Shown here in pieces: positions 45,518-56,666 of a DNA stretch of 64,000 nucleotides (the first letter of the stretch is position 1; each line of letters begins with the position of its first letter). This stretch comes from Comamonas sp. lk (GTDB lineage Bacteria; Pseudomonadota; Gammaproteobacteria; Burkholderiales; Burkholderiaceae_C), in contig NZ_UOOB01000001.1 of the NCBI RefSeq assembly GCF_900564145.1, forward strand, positions 2,854,754-2,918,753. Reading direction: 5' to 3'. A program made the position numbers and the translations under genes. Below the pieces are notes generated by a model, which worked only from the letters and a program-made list of their open reading frames with translations, searched no databases and was not told the DNA's origin.

Positions 45518-45799
45518 TCAATTACGGATATCCAGGGTGGGAAGGCCGTAGTCATCAATACTGTTATGCACTGTTGGATATAGCTGTGTTCCGCGAATCT
45601 CGTAAAAAGGCAGGCCGAAATCATCAACAGAATTGTGAATAGTTGGATATACGGACGTGCCCCTGATCTCAAATGCAGGAAGTCCGTAGTCGTGCACCTC
45701 GTTATGCACAGTCGGATAGAGTTGGTTGCCGCGCATTTCAAAGGCCGGCAGACCAAAGTCATAACGTTCTGCATGGGCTGTTGGATACAAGCTTGGCAT
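45518..45799 (-). CDS. Four-fold tandem-repeat protein (93 aa)
   Basis: Nearly the whole protein is four copies of a unit of about 22 residues with consensus YPTxHNxxxDYGLPAFEIRG: first YPTAHAERYDFGLPAFEMRG, then YPTVHNEVHDYGLPAFEIRG, YPTIHNSVDDFGLPFYEIRG and YPTVHNSIDDYGLPTLDIRN. Each unit should give two short beta strands, so a small closed four-fold beta structure is likely. No signal peptide. The ribosome site CAGGAG lies 7 bases before the ATG. A GTTAGCC box (45822-45816) just upstream and a partial attC downstream mark it as an integron cassette. DNA of the four units has diverged much more than the protein, so the repeat is old and maintained. Confidence 0.75.
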   Translation of the reverse strand: MPSLYPTAHAERYDFGLPAFEMRGNQLYPTVHNEVHDYGLPAFEIRGTSVYPTIHNSVDDFGLPFYEIRGTQLYPTVHNSIDDYGLPTLDIRN

Positions 45800-45843
45800 T
45801 GAAGTCTCCTGAACAGGCTAACTGGATTTAGACGACAGGCAAA

Positions 45844-45898
45844 ATTGCTCATCGCTCTCATAAGAGTGAATCTATCTGTAATGATGAGAGTGAGCAAT
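45844..45898. repeat. Inverted repeat upstream of the repeat-protein gene
   Basis: ATTGCTCATCGCTCTCAT (45844-45861) is imperfectly complementary to ATGATGAGAGTGAGCAAT (45881-45898). It lies where the attC of the preceding cassette would be expected and could be its decayed form, or a transcription signal. Confidence 0.4.
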
Positions 45899-46062
45899 CG
45901 CAAGCATTGCCTTCTAGGCGAACCTAAAAATTTCGAGACTGGAGCTTGATATGTGCTATTAGAGGCCAATGATGGAATGACTGCTCATGGCCGACTGCGT
46001 GAATTCGATTTGCTCCTCGATAGCAGTCAGTCGACTTGCATCAGCTAATTGGTCGAAGGCAG

Positions 46063-46359
46063 CTATCGGTGGCGAGTACGAAGTGGTGTTGTCGGCCAGC
46101 AGCAGTCCTTGAAGGCATCTCCCTCATTGACTGTTTCAGGCTGATTGCGGAAGTTCACCAAGGTCCGCTTTGCGGCAAATCGGGCTAGGCCAATACGGAA
46201 GCCAGAAGACTCCTCTGTTCGCAGGCGGTCGAGCATCCGGCACAGCTGTTCGCGCAACTGGTCAAGTACCCGTGTGGCCCTCCGCGGCTGAAGCTCGATG
46301 ACGGGCCGCAGTCGCAGGTGCTTGCGATGGCCTTGATTGGACGGCAGGGCTGGCATCAT
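46063..46359 (-). pseudogene. Truncated integron integrase (IntI-like N-terminus)
   Basis: 98 codons from ATG 46359 (GGGAG 5 bases upstream). Residues 32-49 read LDQLREQLCRMLDRLRTE; class 1 IntI has LDQLRE, eight residues and then LRTE with the same spacing in its DNA-binding N-domain. After that similarity fades and the frame stops long before the tyrosine-recombinase catalytic residues (R, H, R, Y). I read it as the stub of a lost integrase. The perfect LexA box 75 bases upstream is what SOS-controlled intI genes have, which supports the call. An in-frame ATG at 46407 is possible. Confidence 0.6.
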
Positions 46360-46433
46360 GTGGGCTCCCGGCGGCAGCGAATCCTCGTTGAGGAGACTTG
46401 TAAGCACGCGCCGCTTTTGCCGGAAACTTAATT

Positions 46434-46449
46434 CTGTATTTAAATACAG
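46434..46449. promoter_or_regulatory. LexA box (integrase promoter)
   Basis: CTGTATTTAAATACAG is a perfect palindrome that fits CTGT-N8-ACAG. It lies between the integrase stub on the left and the rightward gene pair at 46592. LexA control of integrase genes is established for integrons; here it may also affect rightward transcription. Confidence 0.8.
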
Positions 46450-46557
46450 TTAAACGGGAGATTTCTATGACCTATCAAAGGCTTGCCGGTGCACGGTGCG
46501 CCGATTTAGGCGCGTAGCGGGTCTGCCTAGATGGCATTAGCCGTCTCCCGAGAACAC

Positions 46558-46564
46558 GTTAGAA
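46558..46564 (+). other. Candidate attI/first cassette junction
   Basis: GTTAGAA differs from the GTTRRRY core only at the last base. It lies between the LexA box and the first rightward gene, as attI does in intact integrons. Support is positional and weak. Confidence 0.3.
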
Positions 46565-46591
46565 TGACTAGTAAATTTTCGAGGCCAATCA

Positions 46592-47122
46592 ATGTCGAAA
46601 ACAAAAGAAATCGTTAATCAAAGAATTAAGCAGATTAACGAGTTTTTTGACAAGCAGCACTACCTTAAAAAAGGCCGACGGTCAGGCGCCTCGGTTTTCC
46701 GGATGCTTCGATACAAGAGTGTAAAATACAAAGAAAACATCGAGAGCGCTCAATCGGAATTAAGTGCAACGCTGGCCCAGCATGTTGAATTTCGCCACCA
46801 TACCTTGGTGGCGTGTGCTATTGGCGCGAGGGTGAAGAAATTCTATAGCTTTGGGACCTCCTACCGTGTTGTGCAGTCCTGTAATCCTCGACTGAAAAGG
46901 CGACTTGCCCGTCTCGGAGATGTTGGAAAGAAGTCGGCTAACACGAACTCGACAAACGTTATTGGAAAATGCGCTGAAGTTAAGGCTGCAAATCAAATCT
47001 TGCGAAAAAACAAGAAGTTGGATGTGCCCGAAATCGAACTCACCCCGGCCATTCGACCGCGCACCTTGGAAATAATACCGCGATGTCCGAATTGCGTGGT
47101 AGTGTTTGGACCCGAGAAATGA
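46592..47122 (+). CDS. Protein with cytidine-deaminase-like zinc signature
   Basis: 176 residues, basic, no signal peptide. The C-terminal third has GKCAEVKAANQIL (C127, E129) and, 38 residues later, PRCPNC (C165, C168). This [H/C]AE...PCxxC arrangement and spacing are those of the cytidine-deaminase superfamily, especially toxin-type deaminases such as the YwqJ group, where Cys replaces the first His. The chain ends eight residues after the second Cys, so later strands of the fold are missing or supplied otherwise. The first 110 residues match nothing I know. The next ORF begins within its stop codon (ATGA). GC content is clearly below that of the flanks, as usual for integron cassettes. Toxin or nucleic-acid editing activity is inference. 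Confidence 0.55.
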   Translation: MSKTKEIVNQRIKQINEFFDKQHYLKKGRRSGASVFRMLRYKSVKYKENIESAQSELSATLAQHVEFRHHTLVACAIGARVKKFYSFGTSYRVVQSCNPRLKRRLARLGDVGKKSANTNSTNVIGKCAEVKAANQILRKNKKLDVPEIELTPAIRPRTLEIIPRCPNCVVVFGPEK

Positions 47123-47694
47123 ACTCAACAGACTTCGATTTTGATCTATTCTTCAGATCCCGCTATAGCAGGTTCCTCATTCATCTCGCATCAGGGGGTG
47201 GCACGATCGCCAGCGAAGTTTTTTCAAATCCAGCGCATTTTGCGCTTCGGAAGAAGCTGAGGAGCATCCCAGAAAGCCTTAAACTCGAATACAAACTGAG
47301 TCCGCATATCGATGAAATACTTGCAAATAAAGCCAGGAATTTCGAAAGTCAAGAATTTGATCGCCAGGCCTACTTAAGCGATTTCATTGATTTTGCACGA
47401 TGTGGCTGTTTCTCCTTCGATAGAACTTACTTGGGTAAATCGACTGATCGCCAATACCACCTAGTCGCTTACCCTGTTTTTCGAAGGTCGTACGAAAATA
47501 TAGTTGATATAGTTGGGGGCGAGGTGATTTACGGACTCAGGAGACACTCAGATCCTGGCATATTAAACTCATTTATAGATAAATCCGTTAGAAAACCCTT
47601 CTGGAATGGGAATGTTTGGCTTATTGGAAAACATTTGGTCACCCATATTCACAACAACGATGAAGAAATCCATATTGCGAGCAGCCTCGAATAG
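47119..47694 (+). CDS. Unknown protein coupled to the deaminase-like gene
   Basis: 191 residues from ATG 47119, which overlaps the upstream stop by four bases. No signal peptide, membrane helix or known motif; contains ARCGCFSFDRTYLGKS and a His-rich C-terminus (GKHLVTHIHNNDEEIH). Overlap, matching low GC and the single downstream attC-like site make it part of one two-gene cassette. In such an arrangement an immunity or partner protein is the simplest guess, but nothing in the sequence proves it. Confidence 0.6.
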   Translation: MNSTDFDFDLFFRSRYSRFLIHLASGGGTIASEVFSNPAHFALRKKLRSIPESLKLEYKLSPHIDEILANKARNFESQEFDRQAYLSDFIDFARCGCFSFDRTYLGKSTDRQYHLVAYPVFRRSYENIVDIVGGEVIYGLRRHSDPGILNSFIDKSVRKPFWNGNVWLIGKHLVTHIHNNDEEIHIASSLE

Positions 47695-47724
47695 CCGGGA
47701 AATATATGGCGTATCCTTCTGGCA

Positions 47725-47812
47725 CTCTATTTAACCTGACTTATTTATCTGTCATGACCCTTTCAGCGCAAGGCTCGCGCCAGGCAAAACGCAGGTTAAT
47801 AGAGCGTTGAGC
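47725..47812 (+). repeat. attC-like site after the deaminase pair
   Basis: CTCTATTTAACCTG (47725-47738) pairs with CAGGTTAATAGAG (47792-47804) over 13 bases with one extra T in the left arm, the usual attC asymmetry. The right side ends in GTTGAGC (47806-47812), a perfect GTTRRRY core. The left outer box is degenerate. It begins 30 bases after the stop of the second gene. Confidence 0.45.
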
Positions 47813-48184
47813 GACCGCTTCCGGGCATCTCGTTCGGCAAGTCGAAGGACAGCAACCGTTGCAAAGCCGACATAGGTCTACGAAGGCTGGACGACCGCAA
47901 TGGGTCGCTAGCTCCTGTTCGCACGACGTGACAGCGGACATCCAGCGACCTAACTGCCTTCACTTGATAGTCGCTGTCCGCTGCACACCTGCAACCCGTC
48001 ATTGGGCAGTAGTCCGCGTCGATGATCGGATGGCCGGTATGGGACGGTGACAGTTAGGAAGCGTCGCGGCTACGAGCAGCGGCAATCGCTGCACAGCAAC
48101 CCTAGAGCGATAACATGCGAATAGCTGCAACAGGTCTCGTTTACAGCCGTCGAATCAGCCTAAGGATTGACCAAGCGAGCCTGC
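47813..48184. other. Non-coding decayed mobile DNA
   Basis: About 370 bases with no supported ORF. Short motifs such as CAGCAACCGTTGCAAAGC (about 47849) and GGCAATCGCTGCACAGCA (about 48082) are variants of the sequence at 44811. It probably contains empty or ruined cassettes. Confidence 0.4.
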
Positions 48185-48193
48185 TTAGAGCGG

Positions 48194-48663
48194 CTAACAC
48201 CACCTATCCACGAAGCGGGCGCAGATGATTGCTGCAGCCAATTGCAGCAACGCTTCGTGAATGTCCAAGCGCCTTTCAAAACGGATTCGCAGCTTGCCAA
48301 AGCCAGCAAACCATCCGTGTGTTCTCTCCACAACCCAGCGATGCCTACCCAGTTTCTCGCTGCTCTCCATCCCTCGCCTTGCAATCCGGCTGGCGATGCC
48401 CCGCCGCCTGAGATAGGCACGGCAGCGTCGGTAGTCATAACCTTTGTCGGCATGTAGCTTCGCCGGTCGCTTGCGTGCTCTGCCTGGCAAGCCTGCTTGC
48501 CGCAGGTAGCGCATCCATGCACTTCTCGAACATCATGGAATCGTGCCTGTTAGCCCCACTGACGAGAATCACCAGAGGGATACCTCTGGCATCTACGACG
48601 ATATGCCGTTTGGAGCCGAGCTTGCCTCGGTCGGTGGGGTTGGGGCCCGTTTCCTGGCCCCCC
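48194..48663 (-). pseudogene. IS427-type transposase OrfB, frameshifted
   Basis: After the -1 shift at the G6 run the frame reads GPNPTDRGKLGSKRHIVVDA, then VSGANRHDSMMFEKCMDALP, as expected for this group. It loses homology near 48505. Homology resumes in another frame (GLPGRARKRPAKLHADKGYD, WVVERTHGWFAGFGKLRIRF) to 48194. One extra base around 48500-48508 explains this. A functional DDE enzyme would need two frame changes, so the element is probably dead, or the base is a sequencing error. Confidence 0.75.
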
Positions 48664-49018
48664 GGGGGCTTGGCACCGAAGAGCCATCAATGCAGGCCCG
48701 GCTCCAATCAATCTGGTCATGTTCACGCAGGCGCACCAGCATGGCTTGGTGCAATCGCTGCCAGACACCACTAGCATTCCAGTCACGCAGGCGCCGCCAG
48801 CAAGTCATGCCGCTGCCGTAACCCAGGGATTGGGGGAGGTCTTCCCATGGAATGCCGGTGTGCAGCACGAACAGGATGCCGTTGAGGGCCGCCTCATCGC
48901 TCACGCGTAGCTTGCGCGCGCCACCTTTGCTGGAAGGTGAAAATGTTGGAATCAGGGGCTGCAGCTGTTGCCACAGTTCTTTGTTAACGGGTTGTCTTGC
49001 CATGAGGGCATGAAGCAT
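48593..49018 (-). CDS. IS427-type transposase, OrfA
   Basis: N-terminal part of a DDE transposase, with the DUF4096-like PLIPTFSPSSKGGARKLRVS and the first catalytic Asp in ARACIDGSSVPSPRG-like context (SRACIDGSSVPSPRGA). The frame leaves homology after a run of six G (48663-48658), the usual site of -1 frameshifting into OrfB. ATG could be 49018 or 49000. Confidence 0.75.
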   Translation of the reverse strand: MLHALMARQPVNKELWQQLQPLIPTFSPSSKGGARKLRVSDEAALNGILFVLHTGIPWEDLPQSLGYGSGMTCWRRLRDWNASGVWQRLHQAMLVRLREHDQIDWSRACIDGSSVPSPRGARKRAPTPPTEASSAPNGISS

Positions 49019-49248: not shown

Positions 49249-52200
49249 TCAATGAAAATCGCGGCTGTTCAGGCCGACTTCCACAAAGCGCCCCAGCCAG
49301 CGAGTCATGTCCTTGGCGCGCATTACTACCAAATGATGAGCGGCTGGCGCTTTATCTGATTGGGCTTTAGCCTGTTTTCCCTCATATTCCTCGGCGTCCA
49401 GCTGTGGAGCCGTGCTAGTTTGCCAGATGCCTTCCACGGCCAGCAGGCGTGAGGCCAGCAGCGGCGCCTGCCAGCGGGCAAAGGTCTGGGCCCAGACCAC
49501 AAGGTTGATGGTGCCGGTCTCGTCTTCCAGGGAGATGAACAGCGTGCCCTTGGCCGTGGGCGGTCTCTGGCGCACGGTGACGATGCCGCAGGCGCGCACT
49601 TTTTGACCCGGCAGCATGTTGCGCAGCTCCACGGCCGTGTGCAGGCCATGGCGGGCCAGCTTGGGGCGCAGCAGGGCCAGAGGGTGGCGGCGCAGACTCA
49701 GGCCCGTGGCGGCGTAGTCGAACATGATTTCTTCGCCCTCTCGGGCTGCGGGCAGCTGCAGCGCGGGCTCGTTGACCGGCACACCGGCAAACAGCGGCGG
49801 CAAGTCGTTTTGCACGGCGGCATCCCACATTTGCTGGCGTCTATGGCCCGAGAGAGAGCGCAGCGCATCGGCAGCGGCCAGGGCTTGCAGCTCGCTTTGG
49901 CTCAGCTGCGCTCTCAGGGCCAGATCTTCGGTATTCGCCCACGGGGATTGCGCCCTCTGCTCCTCTATGCGTAGCGCCGCAGCCTTGCCCAGATACGCCA
50001 CGCGATTCAGGCCCAGGCGCACGGCGGGCTGGGGCTGGGCCACGCCGCGCAGGGTTTGCAAAGGCGCTTCCAGCGTGCACAGCCAGTGGCTGTGGCAGAC
50101 ATCCACTGGCAGGACGCGCACGCCATGGCGGCGCGCGTCCTGCACCAGTTGCGCGGGCGCATAAAAACCCATGGGCTGGGCATTGAGCAGGGCTTGCAGA
50201 AAAATTGCCGGCTCATGGCGCTTGAACCAGGCGCTGGCATAGGCCAGCAGCGCAAAGCTGATGGCATGGCTTTCGGGAAAGCCGTATTCGCCAAAGCCCA
50301 GCATTTGCGCAAAGATGGCCTGGGCAAATTCCAGCCGGTAGCCGCGCGCCACCATGCCGTCGATCAGCGGGCGCTCAAAGCCGTGCACACCGCCCTTGCG
50401 TTTCCAGGCGGCCATGGAGCGGCGCAGCGCATCGGCTCTTTCGGCCGAAAAACCCGCCGCCTCCATGGCGATCTGCATGACCTGCTCCTGGAATATGGGT
50501 ACGCCCAGCGTGCGCTCCAGGGCTTTTTTCAGCTCTGGTTTTTCCAGCACCAGCGGCAAGTCCCTGCGCTCACGCTCGCGCGCCAGCAGATAGGGGTGGA
50601 CCATGCCGCCCTGAATCGGCCCGGGCCGCACGATGGCGACCTGCACGGCCAGGTCGTAGAACTTGCGGGGCAGCAGCCGCGGCAGCATGCTCATCTGAGC
50701 CCGGCTTTCGATCTGGAAAGTGCCCACGGTATCGGCACGGCAAATCATGGCGTAGGTAGCCGGGTCGTCCTGCGGGATCTGGGCCAGGCCCCATGATTCG
50801 CCGCGCCAGCGGGCGCGCTCGGTCAGCGCATTGCGCAGCATGGTGAGCATGCCCAGGGCCAGCACATCGACCTTGAGCAGACCGAGCACGTCCAGATCGT
50901 CCTTGTCCCATTGAATGACGCAGCGATGGGCCATGGCTGCAGGCTCCACCGGCACCAGCCGCGTGAGCTTGTCCTGGGTGAGCACAAAGCCGCCCACATG
51001 CTGGCTCAGATGACGCGGCCTATCCTTGAGCTGCCAGGCCAGCTCCACCCACAGGCGCAGCTGCCTGTCGCTGACGCTCACCGTCATGGATTTATCCTGG
51101 GCCAGCACCTGAGCTTCCTTGAATTTGCGCTCCACCCAGTCCTCGGGCAGGGTTTCTGGCCCGTCTTCGGGCGATGCCTCGGACGATGCCTGGGAGAGGT
51201 CGGCTTTTTCGGCCTGGGCCTGGGCATGTTCGCTGAACCAGTACTGGCCCTTGGCCAGCGCATCGATCAGGTCCGCCGGCAAGCCCAAGGCCTTGCCCAC
51301 ATCGCGCAACGCGCCCCGGCTGCGCCAGCAGCTGACCACGGCCGTCAGCGCGGCCCGATCGCGGCCGTATTTGGTGTAGATGTACTGGATGACCTCTTCG
51401 CGCCGGGCATGCTCGAAGTCCACATCGATATCGGGCGGCTCGCTGCGCGCCTTGCTGATGAAGCGCTCCACCAGCAAATGATTGCCCACGGGGTTGACGG
51501 CGGTAATGCCCAGGCAGAAACACACGGCGGAATTGGCGGCCGAGCCCCGGCCCTGGCACAGAATGCCGACGCTGCGCGCATAGCGCACGATGTCATGCAC
51601 GGTGAGAAAGTACATCTCGTACTTGCAGTCGGCAATCAGCGCCAGCTCGATCTGCAGCTGCGCCCGCACCGCTTCGGGAATGCCTTGGGGATAGCGCCCC
51701 GCCGCGCCCTGCCAGGTATGCCAGGCCAGGGTCTGGCCTGCACTCATGCCGGGCAACACGCTTTCCTGCGGGTACTGGTAGCTGATTTCGTTCAGGATAA
51801 AGCTGCAGCGTTCGGCCAACCGAACGCTGGCCTGTAGCAGCGCTTTGGGATACAGGGCCGCCAGCCGCAGGCGCGAGCGCAGATGCCGCTCGGCATTGAG
51901 CTGCAGCGCAAAGCCGCATTCGCCCACCGTCTTGCCCAACTGGATGGCCGTCACCACATCCTGCAGCGGCTTGCGCGAGCGGGCATGCATATGCACATCG
52001 CCGCAGGCCAGCAGCGGCAAGCCCAGCGCAGTGCCGACCTGCTGCAGGGTTTGCAGCCACAGACTGTCGTCGGGGGCCAGGTGCAGCTCCACACCCAGCC
52101 ATAGAGATTCTGAATAAAAATGGTTTACAGCGCTTTGAATACAAGCGCTTATAGATATCAAATCAGAAGCATCTTCAAAACCGGCAACCAGGCCACGCTG

Positions 52201-52665
52201 CGGCAGCAGCACGCATTCACAGCCCTGGTGCAGCAATGACCAGGGACTAGTCTCATCTACCACATAAGCGCCCTTCGCGGCCCGGCTGCGTGCAGCGGTA
52301 ATGAATTCGCAGAGATTGCCCCAGCCTTGCAGATCGCGCGCCAGCACCACGATGCGCAGCTTGCCCCAGGCAAATTCGCTGCCATAGATCAGATGCAGAT
52401 CGCAGTCTCGCGCCGCCTCGAAAGCACGCACGGCACCGGCTACCGAGCATTCATCGGTCAGCGCCAGTGCCGCATAGCCCAGACTTTTGGCTCGGTGCAC
52501 CAGCTCGGCCGGAGATGAAGCCCCGCGCAGAAAGCTGAAGTGCGACAGGCAATGCAGCTCCGCATAGGCCAGCGGCCCCCTGCCCGCCCCCAGGGCCGTG
52601 GGCAGGGCCGGCGCTGCCGCCGGTGGCTTGGCGGGTGCATTGCGGCTTAGAACTGCAGCAGCCAT
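49249..52665 (-). CDS. dnaE2: Error-prone DNA polymerase (DnaE2/ImuC)
   Basis: 1138 residues. N-terminal PHP domain (ELHCLSHFSFLRGASSPAEL), polymerase palm with the metal-binding PPDIDVDFEH, the GRGSAANSAVCFCLGIT fingers segment, and a C-terminal OB domain (VRACGIVTVRQRPPTAKGT). It performs translesion synthesis under SOS with ImuA and ImuB. ATG 52665 lies eight bases after the imuB stop. Two stretches look foreign: residues about 168-184 (ISISACIQSAVNHFYSES region), encoded by a repeat-like element at 52115-52163, and residues about 1096-1110 (KAQSDKAPA region), encoded by 49339-49378. Both keep the reading frame. Confidence 0.93.
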   Translation of the reverse strand: MAAAVLSRNAPAKPPAAAPALPTALGAGRGPLAYAELHCLSHFSFLRGASSPAELVHRAKSLGYAALALTDECSVAGAVRAFEAARDCDLHLIYGSEFAWGKLRIVVLARDLQGWGNLCEFITAARSRAAKGAYVVDETSPWSLLHQGCECVLLPQRGLVAGFEDASDLISISACIQSAVNHFYSESLWLGVELHLAPDDSLWLQTLQQVGTALGLPLLACGDVHMHARSRKPLQDVVTAIQLGKTVGECGFALQLNAERHLRSRLRLAALYPKALLQASVRLAERCSFILNEISYQYPQESVLPGMSAGQTLAWHTWQGAAGRYPQGIPEAVRAQLQIELALIADCKYEMYFLTVHDIVRYARSVGILCQGRGSAANSAVCFCLGITAVNPVGNHLLVERFISKARSEPPDIDVDFEHARREEVIQYIYTKYGRDRAALTAVVSCWRSRGALRDVGKALGLPADLIDALAKGQYWFSEHAQAQAEKADLSQASSEASPEDGPETLPEDWVERKFKEAQVLAQDKSMTVSVSDRQLRLWVELAWQLKDRPRHLSQHVGGFVLTQDKLTRLVPVEPAAMAHRCVIQWDKDDLDVLGLLKVDVLALGMLTMLRNALTERARWRGESWGLAQIPQDDPATYAMICRADTVGTFQIESRAQMSMLPRLLPRKFYDLAVQVAIVRPGPIQGGMVHPYLLARERERRDLPLVLEKPELKKALERTLGVPIFQEQVMQIAMEAAGFSAERADALRRSMAAWKRKGGVHGFERPLIDGMVARGYRLEFAQAIFAQMLGFGEYGFPESHAISFALLAYASAWFKRHEPAIFLQALLNAQPMGFYAPAQLVQDARRHGVRVLPVDVCHSHWLCTLEAPLQTLRGVAQPQPAVRLGLNRVAYLGKAAALRIEEQRAQSPWANTEDLALRAQLSQSELQALAAADALRSLSGHRRQQMWDAAVQNDLPPLFAGVPVNEPALQLPAAREGEEIMFDYAATGLSLRRHPLALLRPKLARHGLHTAVELRNMLPGQKVRACGIVTVRQRPPTAKGTLFISLEDETGTINLVVWAQTFARWQAPLLASRLLAVEGIWQTSTAPQLDAEEYEGKQAKAQSDKAPAAHHLVVMRAKDMTRWLGRFVEVGLNSRDFH
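49339..49378. repeat. Dispersed repeat copy in the dnaE2 3' region
   Basis: AGCGGCTGGCGCTTTATCTG followed by ATTGGGCTTTAGCCTGTTTT. The first 11 bases equal the arms of the terminator hairpin at 6533-6608, and 49350-49378 nearly equals 31828-31860 in emrA. Confidence 0.6.
52115..52163. repeat. Dispersed repeat copy inside dnaE2
   Basis: On the minus strand GATTTGATATCTATAAGCGC and onward to CCATTTTT. It contains an AGCGCT-N9-AGCGCT dyad (52129-52134, 52144-52149) and the TTTGATA core of the intergenic elements. It encodes a segment that I do not expect in the DnaE2 family. Confidence 0.55.
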
Positions 52666-52672
52666 GGCCGGC

Positions 52673-54247
52673 TCACCCGTAGATGCCCTGGGCAAACCAC
52701 TGCGTACCTGCCCCGGCACCAGCTGAACTGCCCCAGCCGCTTGCCACATGAGGCCCTGGCTCTGCCGCCCGCTGGCGGTAGATCCAGACATGGCCGACCA
52801 CCTCGTTAAAGGCCACAAAATAGTCGCGCACGGCCAGGGCATCTGCCTCGCCCCACCAGCCCGACTCCAGCCGGTAAGGCCCGGCGCGCAGTTGCAGCGG
52901 CCCGTGCCAACTGGGACGGCTGCCTTGCAATGGCAAAGCCTGGGGTTCGGCCAGCAGCCATGGCGGGCACAGCGACTGCCAGCAAGTGCTCATCGCCGCC
53001 AACGGCCTGACTGCCGGCTTTTGGGGCTGCAGCCCGCTGCTGGCGCTTTGCCATTGCTGCATGGCCTCGGGCCGGTGATCGGCACAAGGCGTCACCATGC
53101 GCACGGCGTCCTCGCCCCAGCGGGCACTGATGCGCTCCACCCATTCATGCCAGGGCAAGCTGTTGTCCTGGCAGCCCTCTTTTTCTCCCGGCTGCGGCAG
53201 GCAGCTGAGCATATCGGGCGCCCAGGCCACATTTTCCAGCAGATTCAGCTCCAGCATGTCCACGGGCGCACGCCAGCGCTGCTGGGTCAGGTGTTCGCGC
53301 AGCAGGCGCTGCAGATGCGCCATGGCCTGTGCGCCCTGGGCCGGCTGGGCCGTGCGTATGCAAAGCTCGCCCCACAGCGGCAGCTCCTGGCCATCCACCC
53401 GGCGCAAATCATGGTGCCAGCGCAGTTGCAGCGCCAGCACCGCCCGGTGGCGGGCCTGCAACCAGGTTTGCAGCGCCCGCAGCAAAGGCTGAGCCGCCTG
53501 CAGCACGGCATCGGCATGGTGGGCGGGGTAGCCCAGATCATGGCGCAGGCCAAACTGCTCGGGCAGTTGCAGCCAGTTCAGCGGCTGGGGCAAGAGCCCA
53601 TAGGCTTCATCGAGCACACGCAAGGCCTTGGCACCGATGCGGCGCGACAGCCCCGCACGCGGCAAAGCGCGCACATGGCCCCAGCGCGTACAGCCCAGGC
53701 GTTGCAGCACGGCGCTGTGCTGCTGCAAAGCCGTCAAAGTCCATAAGGGGAAATCATCAGCGTCCAGAGGCGTTGTGCCTTGCCCTGTTCCCCGCCCTGT
53801 GCCCCGCTCTGCTCTCGTGCCGTTTTCGCCGCCCAGCTTCAGACGCAGCTGCGCCAGCGCCTGCCAGGCCGTGGGCCCCTCCCCCGAAGCGGGAGACTCA
53901 ACCGCCGCAGCCCCAGGCTCTGCGGCTTGAGATACGGCTTGCTGAAAAGCCTGGGCCAGCCTGTGCAGCATGGGCTCGCGCCCGCCCCACAGGCGCTGGA
54001 CGCTGCTGGTTTCCATGAGCAAAGCCTCTTCAAGCACGGCCACGCGTGGCGAGTGCTGCAGTGCCCACCAGCAGGTGCTGGCCTGCAGCGGTTGCATGGC
54101 GTTCTTTGTGGATGTCTGTGCCGATATGGCTGGCGATGCGGTTGGAGATCGGGGCGGCGATGGCGCTGCACCACCTGCCTTGTCTGGCTGCAGCGCAGCC
54201 AAAGGCCAGGCGATCCAGTGCGGGGAAGGCAATGCGGCGGCTGTCAT
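52673..54247 (-). CDS. imuB: ImuB, Y-family polymerase-like protein
   Basis: 524 residues related to DinB/UmuC polymerases but lacking the catalytic carboxylates, as ImuB does. It bridges DnaE2 to the beta clamp in the mutasome. Visible are the start MTAAALPSPHWIAWPLAALQ, the helix-hairpin region (RLGCTRWGHVRALPRAGLSR) and the C-terminal YRLESGWWGEADALAVRDYF that is characteristic of ImuB. The longer open frame upstream overlaps imuA and is not used. The spacing to imuA is 17 bases. Confidence 0.9.
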   Translation of the reverse strand: MTAAALPSPHWIAWPLAALQPDKAGGAAPSPPRSPTASPAISAQTSTKNAMQPLQASTCWWALQHSPRVAVLEEALLMETSSVQRLWGGREPMLHRLAQAFQQAVSQAAEPGAAAVESPASGEGPTAWQALAQLRLKLGGENGTRAERGTGRGTGQGTTPLDADDFPLWTLTALQQHSAVLQRLGCTRWGHVRALPRAGLSRRIGAKALRVLDEAYGLLPQPLNWLQLPEQFGLRHDLGYPAHHADAVLQAAQPLLRALQTWLQARHRAVLALQLRWHHDLRRVDGQELPLWGELCIRTAQPAQGAQAMAHLQRLLREHLTQQRWRAPVDMLELNLLENVAWAPDMLSCLPQPGEKEGCQDNSLPWHEWVERISARWGEDAVRMVTPCADHRPEAMQQWQSASSGLQPQKPAVRPLAAMSTCWQSLCPPWLLAEPQALPLQGSRPSWHGPLQLRAGPYRLESGWWGEADALAVRDYFVAFNEVVGHVWIYRQRAAEPGPHVASGWGSSAGAGAGTQWFAQGIYG

Positions 54248-55203: not shown

Positions 55204-55223
55204 TACTGTATAAATATACAGTA
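55204..55223. promoter_or_regulatory. LexA box of imuA-imuB-dnaE2
   Basis: TACTGTATAAATATACAGTA contains CTGT-N8-ACAG with an A/T-only centre, an ideal SOS box, 24 bases before the imuA ATG. Strong SOS induction of the cassette is expected. Confidence 0.92.
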
Positions 55224-55319: not shown

Positions 55320-56666
55320 TCAATCCTGCGATGGAGCTTTCACCTGTATTTGCATACAGGCATCGCACCATTGGCTCACCACCGCATCCAGCGGATGGCC
55401 GGGCTCAGCCGGGGGCGGCCAGCGGCGCAGACAGGCATTGACGATGGCTTGCAGCTGCCACAAGGCCTCCCGATTGACCAATGCCAGCTCGTTCATGCCC
55501 TCCGCATCGTCCTTGAGGTAGTTGAGTACGTCCAGTTGCTGATCGGGGTGTGAGCCAGCCTCGGCCAGCTGTTTTTGCAGATGCAGCAAGCTGGTTTGTA
55601 CAAAGGAAGCGGCTTCATGGTTAACCAGATCTGGCCTGCCCTCGTCCTGCCCCGTCTGCAGCAGCTTCTCCCACATCTGAAACACCGCAGACAGCGCCGC
55701 CACGCCATGCGTGACTTCGGCCAGCAGCGGTGCCAGCGGCGTGCCGGGGCTGATTTCGTCATAAAGCAGCGGCAGCATTCGATGTACCAGCGCCAACGGA
55801 TAACGTTTGTGGTTCATGCGCAGCATCAGCGACAGGCGCTGGCCCGGCATGTGCTTGAACTTGTCAAAGAAAGCCGCCACCACTTCGGCCAACAGCAAAA
55901 TCTGCCCCATGGGCGAGATGGCATCGCCCGGCACTCCGCGCGGATAGCCGGAACCGTCCATGCGCTCATGGTGCTCCAGCACCGCCATCTCCACCGCCCG
56001 AGAATACACGCCGGCACTGCGCACTACCAACATGGCCGTGATCGAATGCGCCACCAGATGTTTGCGCTCCTCGCCGCTGAGGCGGTATGCAGCATCCGTC
56101 CAGGCCGGGTCCATATAGAGCATGCCCACATCGTGCAACAAGGCGGCAGTGGCCAGAGGCACGCATTCGCGCTCGCTCCAGCCTTCCTGCCGCGCCAGAT
56201 AAATGGCCACCAGCGCCATCTGCAGACTATGGGCAAACAATTCGGGGCGCTGCTCACGCATCACCGTGAGCTTGAAAGCGATCTGCGGCGGCAGTTCGAT
56301 GCCGCGCAGCGGAGCCAACAGCCGTTCAGTCCCGCCTTGCGATTGCACCAGGCGCTTCATCAACTCTACGGTTTCGCACTGCACCATGGCCTGGGCCTGC
56401 AGCGCCGGAATGTCCACCAGATGTTCCGTGAGTAGATGGCTATCTATGGGGTCGCGCAGCTTGTGCTGTATGAGCCTGTCATACATGCGGCTATCCATGC
56501 GCGCGCCCTTGTCTACGAGCTTGATGCCTTTGTCGGTGTAAATGGCCTCACCCGTCACCACCTTGGTGTGCTCGGCCATATCGCTAACGGCACGCAAAAA
56601 ATGCGCACCGTCTTCGTGCGGCTCCACTTGCGGCTGACTCAGCTTCTGCGCTGTGTTTTCACTCAT
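55320..56666 (-). CDS. HD-GYP domain cyclic-di-GMP phosphodiesterase
   Basis: 448 residues. The HD-GYP core is complete: ALLHDVGMLYMDP (HD), HSITAMLV, HHERMDGSGYPRG (HHExxDGSGYP) and SPMGQILLLAEVVAAFFDKF. It should hydrolyse c-di-GMP to pGpG or GMP. The N-terminal 150 residues (with IYTDKGIKLVDKGARMDSRM) are not a receiver or other common sensor domain. ATG 56666 gives MSENTAQKLSQPQVEPHEDG; 43 further open codons upstream lack character. Confidence 0.87.
   Translation of the reverse strand: MSENTAQKLSQPQVEPHEDGAHFLRAVSDMAEHTKVVTGEAIYTDKGIKLVDKGARMDSRMYDRLIQHKLRDPIDSHLLTEHLVDIPALQAQAMVQCETVELMKRLVQSQGGTERLLAPLRGIELPPQIAFKLTVMREQRPELFAHSLQMALVAIYLARQEGWSERECVPLATAALLHDVGMLYMDPAWTDAAYRLSGEERKHLVAHSITAMLVVRSAGVYSRAVEMAVLEHHERMDGSGYPRGVPGDAISPMGQILLLAEVVAAFFDKFKHMPGQRLSLMLRMNHKRYPLALVHRMLPLLYDEISPGTPLAPLLAEVTHGVAALSAVFQMWEKLLQTGQDEGRPDLVNHEAASFVQTSLLHLQKQLAEAGSHPDQQLDVLNYLKDDAEGMNELALVNREALWQLQAIVNACLRRWPPPAEPGHPLDAVVSQWCDACMQIQVKAPSQD

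Follow-up and report, generated by a model that had tools for sequence, protein, structure and literature searches.

In a stretch of 64,000 nucleotides from Comamonas sp. lk (positions 2,854,754 to 2,918,753 of contig NZ_UOOB01000001.1), referred to here as the window, two overlapping genes, P1 and P2, probably constitute a toxin-antitoxin-like module carried as an integron cassette, in which a stand-alone YwqJ-like deaminase toxin is followed by an immunity protein of an unnamed family. A toxin-immunity pair was among the possibilities raised in a preliminary description of this DNA, and it has gained support from four co-conserved pairs and from a decayed toxin gene joined to a P2-like gene within a polyimmunity-like array.

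The P1-P2 gene pair

P1 (46592-47122, plus strand) encodes a protein of 176 amino acids, identified as a putative deaminase-type toxin from the open reading frame (ORF) list, the alignment and a profile link, and P2 (47119-47694, plus strand) encodes its partner of 191 amino acids. The two genes overlap by four bases (ATGA), the P2 start codon being the ATG at 47119; a second possible start, the ATG at 47083, is disfavoured by the P2 starts of the relatives, which align to 47119. Both ORFs, as well as the motifs C127-A-E129 and C165-P-N-C168 of P1, were found where the preliminary description had placed them. A GAGG ribosome-binding-like site was recognized by eye close upstream of P1, and no sigma-70-like promoter was located before this gene in a simple scan. 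The low GC content remarked upon previously was also evident, with values of 0.467 for P1, 0.429 for P2 and 0.449 for the cassette (46561-47812) against 0.606 for the whole window.

Searches with both proteins in Pfam, PADLOC, NCBIfam and PHROGs gave no meaningful match, and the second product, described earlier as unrecognized, corresponds to no known family. In PADLOC the best E value of the window proteins was 0.41, and the proteins of the three relatives gave nothing at E<=0.01. An Rfam search at gathering thresholds returned no matches, and the best matches in profile searches against solved structures (E 1.3 and 0.24) were judged to be due to chance.

Relatives of the pair

Four complete P1-P2 pairs were found: that of the window and those of a Muribaculaceae metagenome-assembled genome, a Segatella copri plasmid and a gut record named 'Bacteriophage sp.', the latter three being loci L002, L003 and L005. 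In all four the gene order is the same, both proteins are homologous and the P2 homologue lies directly downstream of P1. Residues C127, A128, E129, C165, N167 and C168 are invariant in the four-row P1 alignment (A1), and the C127, E129, C165 and C168 positions are also kept in a Streptomyces toxin tip described below. Loss of these four residues in homologues, the refuting outcome named in the preliminary description, was not observed in any of the four intact members. The P1 reading frames are all shorter than 190 amino acids, the free-standing proteins measuring 138 to 176. None of the four contains a Pfam trafficking domain or shows the layout of polymorphic toxins, which bear the toxin domain at the C-terminus of a large protein equipped for trafficking. 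Nor was a gene for a toxin backbone recognized in the stretches read beside the four P1 genes.

The co-occurrence of the two genes at the three other places, close to genes of defence or toxin-antitoxin type, bore out what the preliminary description had proposed to look for. At L003 a PDC-M62A/B pair, for which the Septu PtuA/PtuB models give matches too, begins 22 bp behind P2; at L002 a PDDEXK_13/REase-ARP nuclease gene ends 27 bp ahead of P1; and at L005 P1 is directly preceded by a Fic gene and P2 directly followed by ORF6N, with RhuM and DUF3791-DUF3990 genes nearby, the latter being presumably a toxin-antitoxin pair. All three of the other intact pairs, which are rare relatives from gut bacteria, thus adjoin conflict-type genes.

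Wider searches added no further pair. None of the other 199 genomes among the 200 of the family that were searched contains the pair, and a scan of viral contigs with the window P1, A1, A2, P1 and P2 of both L005 and L003, and P1 of L002 yielded no confirmed relatives. With tblastn, neither the window P2 nor the L002 P1 found any match in plasmids or phages. Among plasmids, the L005 P1 recovered only the known Segatella site, the L003 P2 only itself and the L005 P2 nothing; in phages, the L005 P2 had no match but itself.

P1 as a divergent YwqJ-like deaminase

A P1 profile search of 1056 segments matched a Streptomyces toxin tip (L004) at E 8.9e-6, and no further unrelated match was obtained at E<=1. 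This tip is the C-terminus of a 1074-amino acid polymorphic toxin that also carries RHS, ricin-lectin and pretoxin-HINT domains, and it is followed by a SUKH-3 immunity gene. The CAE and CPNC motifs of P1 align with CAE and CDNC of the tip. As a 161-amino acid piece, the tip scored 26.8 bits against the YwqJ-deaminase family PF14431 (cut-off 25.9), but 20.4 within the whole protein, which makes it a borderline member. None of the four P1 proteins reached this cut-off: weak direct matches were obtained for the P1 of L005 (12.8 bits, E 0.14) and L002 (11.4 bits, E 0.36), and none for the P1 of L003 or, at E<=5, for that of the window. Since these scores lie below the cut-off, yet the P1 profile reaches the Streptomyces tip, P1 appears to be a divergent deaminase that is better called YwqJ-like than a member of PF14431.

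Five of the 22 Streptomyces records that match the L004 tip region were inspected besides L004 itself. By reading, L026 to L028 share only the linker or the HINT part, and L029 and L030 carry other tips. In these last two, which are Streptomyces plasmids, SUKH-3 genes follow tips (up to 1356 in L029 and before 1344 in L030) in which the positions of CAE and CDNC are taken by CGL and CxSC. None of the five records was used further. A P1 match in genome G1145 (E 4.8e-4) was rejected as chance, as it has stops inside and no P2 was found nearby.

Beyond the last cysteine, the four P1 chains continue for 3, 5, 5 and 8 residues and the Streptomyces tip for 14. The short tail behind CPNC, considered unusual before, is therefore normal among the relatives. 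In the classical deaminase fold, strands 4 and 5 of the core come behind CxxC. A full five-strand core in P1 is doubtful because the chains end too early, 3 to 8 residues after CxxC, to hold the last two strands there; these strands would have to be missing or replaced. Thus, the deaminase-like character proposed for the first product is sustained by the profile link to the YwqJ-type tip, but its extension to the complete classical core is not.

P2 as the probable immunity protein

The role of P2 is best illustrated by a site in another genome of the window's order (G188), where a match to P1 was obtained at E 7.1e-4 per genome in a search of 300 genomes. This P1 is decayed: its CAE motif reads CAK, the matched stretch is interrupted by two stops and one of the two CxxC cysteines is left. 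It shares 11 bases with the beginning of a gene that encodes a 159-amino acid P2-like protein, whose FASAGSGVVP and RKGVFAYDA motifs resemble, by eye, HxASxGGxxP and ARxGFxSFDR of P2. The P2-like gene belongs to an array of 11 small ORFs on the same strand (L032 3153-10893, minus strand), two of which exceed a Pfam cut-off (Imm11 and DUF416) while nine match no Pfam family. Polyimmunity arrays have been described (PMC3482391, in the part available), and this one is similar in appearance. The P2-like protein itself matched no Pfam immunity family, and nothing was found with it among plasmids. Each of the G188 signals is weak alone, but position, order and overlap taken together make the site appear persuasive. 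Because a decayed P1 overlaps a P2-like gene in a polyimmunity-like array, P2 is probably the immunity protein of P1.

Integron setting

The DNA ahead of P1 was recognized as the remains of an integron by comparison with two regions of G1002, a second genome from the same family. Window positions 46210-46561 are 67% identical to L021 3972-4322, and 46396-46560 align at 73% with a second G1002 region, L022. The homology stops at 46561 and 46560, respectively; at this boundary the three sequences read GAACACGTT and then diverge into unrelated sequence, and P1 starts 31 bases further on. The truncated ORF of L021 matches the integron integrase model PRK15417 (E 3.1e-34), through which the corresponding window ORF was identified as a 5' remnant of a truncated intI (46063-46407, minus strand); the latter gave a weak match of its own to this model (residues 38-68, E 0.12) and none to any Pfam family. 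The remnant is followed by a LexA box, CTGTATTTAAATACAG (46434-46449), in the intI/cassette promoter region, and by an attI-type region (46450-46560, plus strand, left limit approximate) that ends at a presumed recombination core GAACAC/GTT, cut before GTT. Because homology to two attI/intI regions stops just before P1, P1-P2 is most simply read as the first cassette behind the attI of a dead integron. L021 and L022 are two integron remnants in one genome, and both hold an ORF of near-identical sequence (RRNTYGENSKSSRKNIPLSKALDIRSERRAQDSALAKA); L022 also contains two clear attC sites of 57 bases each. A search of the Comamonas genome with the integrase model TIGR02249 returned five matches, none over the cut-off of 265 bits (best 80.8); one of them, at 1.446 Mb of contig C1, was set aside as an XerD-like recombinase upon reading of the ORF.

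The LexA box noted in the preliminary description was found with no mismatches as a perfect palindrome, 142 bases upstream of P1 and within the region aligned to the G1002 integrons. Allowing three mismatches, the window contains three LexA-type sites against 0.08 expected.

An attC-like site (47729-47812, plus strand; R'' ATTTAAC, R' GTTGAGC) probably closes the cassette and is the sole RYYYAAC/GTTRRRY pair at the scanned spacing in 46561-48300. Among 2000 shuffles of the 300 bases behind P2, 8 reached its pairing score of 12, as did 72 of 2000 when the 1740-base region was shuffled. Its strand folds with unexceptional energy (z -0.12), and the scan also picked up, within a transposase-like ORF of L021, a pair of score 11 that is probably due to chance. 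The site is therefore probable rather than proven. Carriage by an integron, as first proposed, is thus supported by the attI/intI homology, and the single attC-like site proposed with it stands as the only candidate of the scan.

Neighbouring features of the window

The cassette lies between the integron remnant and a transposase of the insertion sequence IS4/5 type, which is directly behind it and is split over two frames (48194-49018, minus strand; Pfam DUF4096 and DDE_Tnp_1_2). Further on, 1.55 kb downstream of P1-P2, lies a gene (49249-52842, minus strand) whose product of 1197 amino acids is of the DNA polymerase III alpha type, dnaE2-like by reading, and beyond it there are two LexA-like boxes, at 55206-55221 (three mismatches) and 55344-55359 (two mismatches to the box at 46434).

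On the other side, a 93-amino acid ORF (45518-45799, minus strand) shows by eye about four protein repeats of some 24 residues (YPTxHNxxxDxGLPxxEIRG), with no NCBIfam match, no Pfam family over cut-off and no DNA repeat of at least 20 bases. Window positions 45812-45994 are 76.5% identical to another stretch of the same genome (L023 6080-5903, at about 3.324 Mb of C1), which sits between a patatin-like ORF, by reading, and an unknown ORF; no integron features were noticed at this repeat.

Proposed mode of action and alternative explanations

P1 would be a zinc-dependent deaminase, as its CxE and CxxC motifs suggest, that deaminates a nucleic-acid base or a nucleotide in the cytoplasm and so stops growth. 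P2, made from the overlapping gene, would bind P1 and bar it from its substrate. Lacking any recognizable delivery domain, P1 would act on its own cell, which would make the pair a toxin-antitoxin-like or abortive-infection module. Such a module would be harmless while P2 is made in balance and would cause growth arrest when P2 is lost or overcome, as by loss of the cassette or take-over by a phage; it could be kept by addiction and possibly used in abortive infection. Phage defence by P1-P2 is plausible in view of the neighbouring genes. As the AF2 (AlphaFold2) models are uninformative, the deaminase fold, the nucleic acid or nucleotide substrate and neutralization by P2 are inferred, as are zinc binding, deamination and toxicity.

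Several observations weigh against this reading. In Pfam, NCBIfam, PADLOC and PHROGs there is no family to which the window P1 belongs, and its best NCBIfam match (E 0.0031) is to an unrelated model. The AF2 model of P1, built from two alignment rows, has a predicted local distance difference test score (pLDDT) of 36.5, with a helix over CAE (124-139) and strands at 151-154 and 161-164, all of low confidence, and that of P2 has a pLDDT of 30.2. Within its complete 1074-amino acid protein the Streptomyces tip scores 20.4 bits to PF14431, under the cut-off. PF14431 itself was found in none of 200 genomes of the window's phylum (E<=1e-5), the window's genome included, and in none of 247 Bacteroidota genomes (E<=1e-3), among them that of L002; in the controls of this search, B. 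subtilis was the sole positive of 14. None of the four P2 proteins matches a Pfam immunity family (SUKH, Imm1-6 or others). The G188 P2-like protein compares with P2 at an hhalign probability of 32% (P 4.8e-4), with the P2 profile at E 0.08, where a chance match comes next at 0.18, and with one relative at a BLASTP E value of 0.027; it was not reported at E<=1 in the 1056-segment profile search. The decayed G188 P1 would not stand without its position, since the presumed chance match in G1145 scored better. Finally, only four intact pairs are known, and mobile elements gather defence genes anyway.

The Septu-like and restriction-nuclease neighbours at two of the relatives would also suit a dedicated anti-phage system, in which P2 is a sensor or switch that releases P1 on infection to deaminate nucleotides or phage nucleic acid, with abortive infection as the outcome. 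Integron cassettes have been reported to house small anti-phage systems (PMC12409362, in the part available), and AvcID and RADAR are deaminase-based defences. However, PADLOC models match neither protein, a trigger is not visible, and the most telling setting for the role of P2 is an array of polyimmunity-like character rather than a defence island; we regard this explanation as possible but not as the preferred one. The same array, with its resemblance to a polyimmunity locus, and the inclusion in the P1 family of the tip of an RHS/HINT toxin could instead point to an antibacterial effector, P1 being a small delivered cargo or a spare tip for recombination into a larger toxin and P2 protecting the producer or giving acquired protection. 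PMC3482391, in its available part, describes recombination between stand-alone toxin cassettes and polymorphic toxins. This is nevertheless rather unlikely, as the four P1, all in frames of less than 190 amino acids, have no Pfam trafficking domain, no toxin backbone gene is recognized beside them in the stretches read, and the integron cassette carries P1 and P2 only.

Two further explanations concern the window itself. The truncated intI, the failure to find an integron integrase over cut-off in the genome, the scan without a sigma-70-like promoter before P1 and the absence of the pair from the 199 other genomes of the family searched would agree with a relic, that is, a cassette stranded behind a dead integrase and now without effect, the observed conservation being owed to the relatives only. 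Yet both frames are intact and have all conserved residues, which a free toxin gene would rarely keep without a working partner, and we think it improbable that the pair is such a relic. A mutator role, in which an SOS-linked deaminase would raise the mutation rate via the LexA box, could be suggested by the position of this box upstream of P1, by the polymerase gene downstream with its two LexA-like boxes beyond, and by a deaminase toxin reported to mutagenize survivors (PMC7901873, in the part available). But the box sits in an intI/attI region that aligns with integrons holding other cassettes, the transposase stands between the cassette and the polymerase gene, and the stretches read around the other three pairs showed no repair gene. 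This role is unlikely, and it is the one to which we give by far the least credit.

Comparison with known systems and significance

A stand-alone YwqJ-like toxin with its immunity protein has its closest parallels in the YwqJ-like toxins of PF14431, such as B. subtilis YwqJ-YwqK and the Streptomyces RHS/HINT tip with SUKH-3. These show the same CxE/CxxC spacing as P1, their chains also end soon after CxxC and their immunity genes are likewise directly behind the toxin genes. In contrast to them, P1 is free-standing, with 138 to 176 amino acids, lacks LXG, RHS or HINT and falls below the Pfam cut-off, and P2 is neither SUKH nor Imm6. The DddA/SCP1.201-type DNA deaminase toxins are, like P1, bacterial deaminase toxins, DddA having an immunity partner, and none of the four P1 gave an SCP1.201-type Pfam match. 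DddA differs in being delivered by type VI secretion, as given in the available part of PMC7901873. The type III toxin-antitoxin system AvcID, which combines a deoxycytidylate deaminase with an RNA inhibitor and is anti-phage (PMC10511110 and PMC12409362, as far as their text was available), resembles P1-P2 in that a deaminase is held in check by an adjacent element within a mobile region; compared by description, AvcID has an RNA as inhibitor and acts on a nucleotide, whereas the partner of P1 is a protein.

The anti-phage activity of integron cassettes is documented in the accessible portion of PMC12409362. Like P1-P2, such cassettes of V. cholerae, V. parahaemolyticus and mobile integrons are small and of unknown function, P1-P2 occupying the first place behind attI; no deaminase pair appears among the anti-phage cassettes in that portion. 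Likewise, in the literature retrieved, as far as its text was available, no free-standing YwqJ-like deaminase was found described with a P2-type partner or as an integron cassette. Very tentatively, P1-P2 may represent a new two-protein type of toxin-antitoxin or abortive-infection system, with a minimal deaminase without C-terminal strands or delivery domains and a new immunity fold, which would guard against phages and cross phyla via integron cassettes, plasmids and gut mobile elements.

The pair joins polymorphic-toxin deaminases, integron cassettes and phage-defence neighbourhoods, which are usually seen apart, and it offers a compact, testable system with an unnamed partner family. B. 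subtilis YwqJ induced inside the cell had a marked growth effect with none visible on chromosome or rRNA; small molecules were suggested as its substrate, which was left open (PMC8321402, in the part available). The small stand-alone P1 would be a convenient enzyme for settling the substrate of YwqJ-type toxins, and perhaps a very small base-modifying domain.
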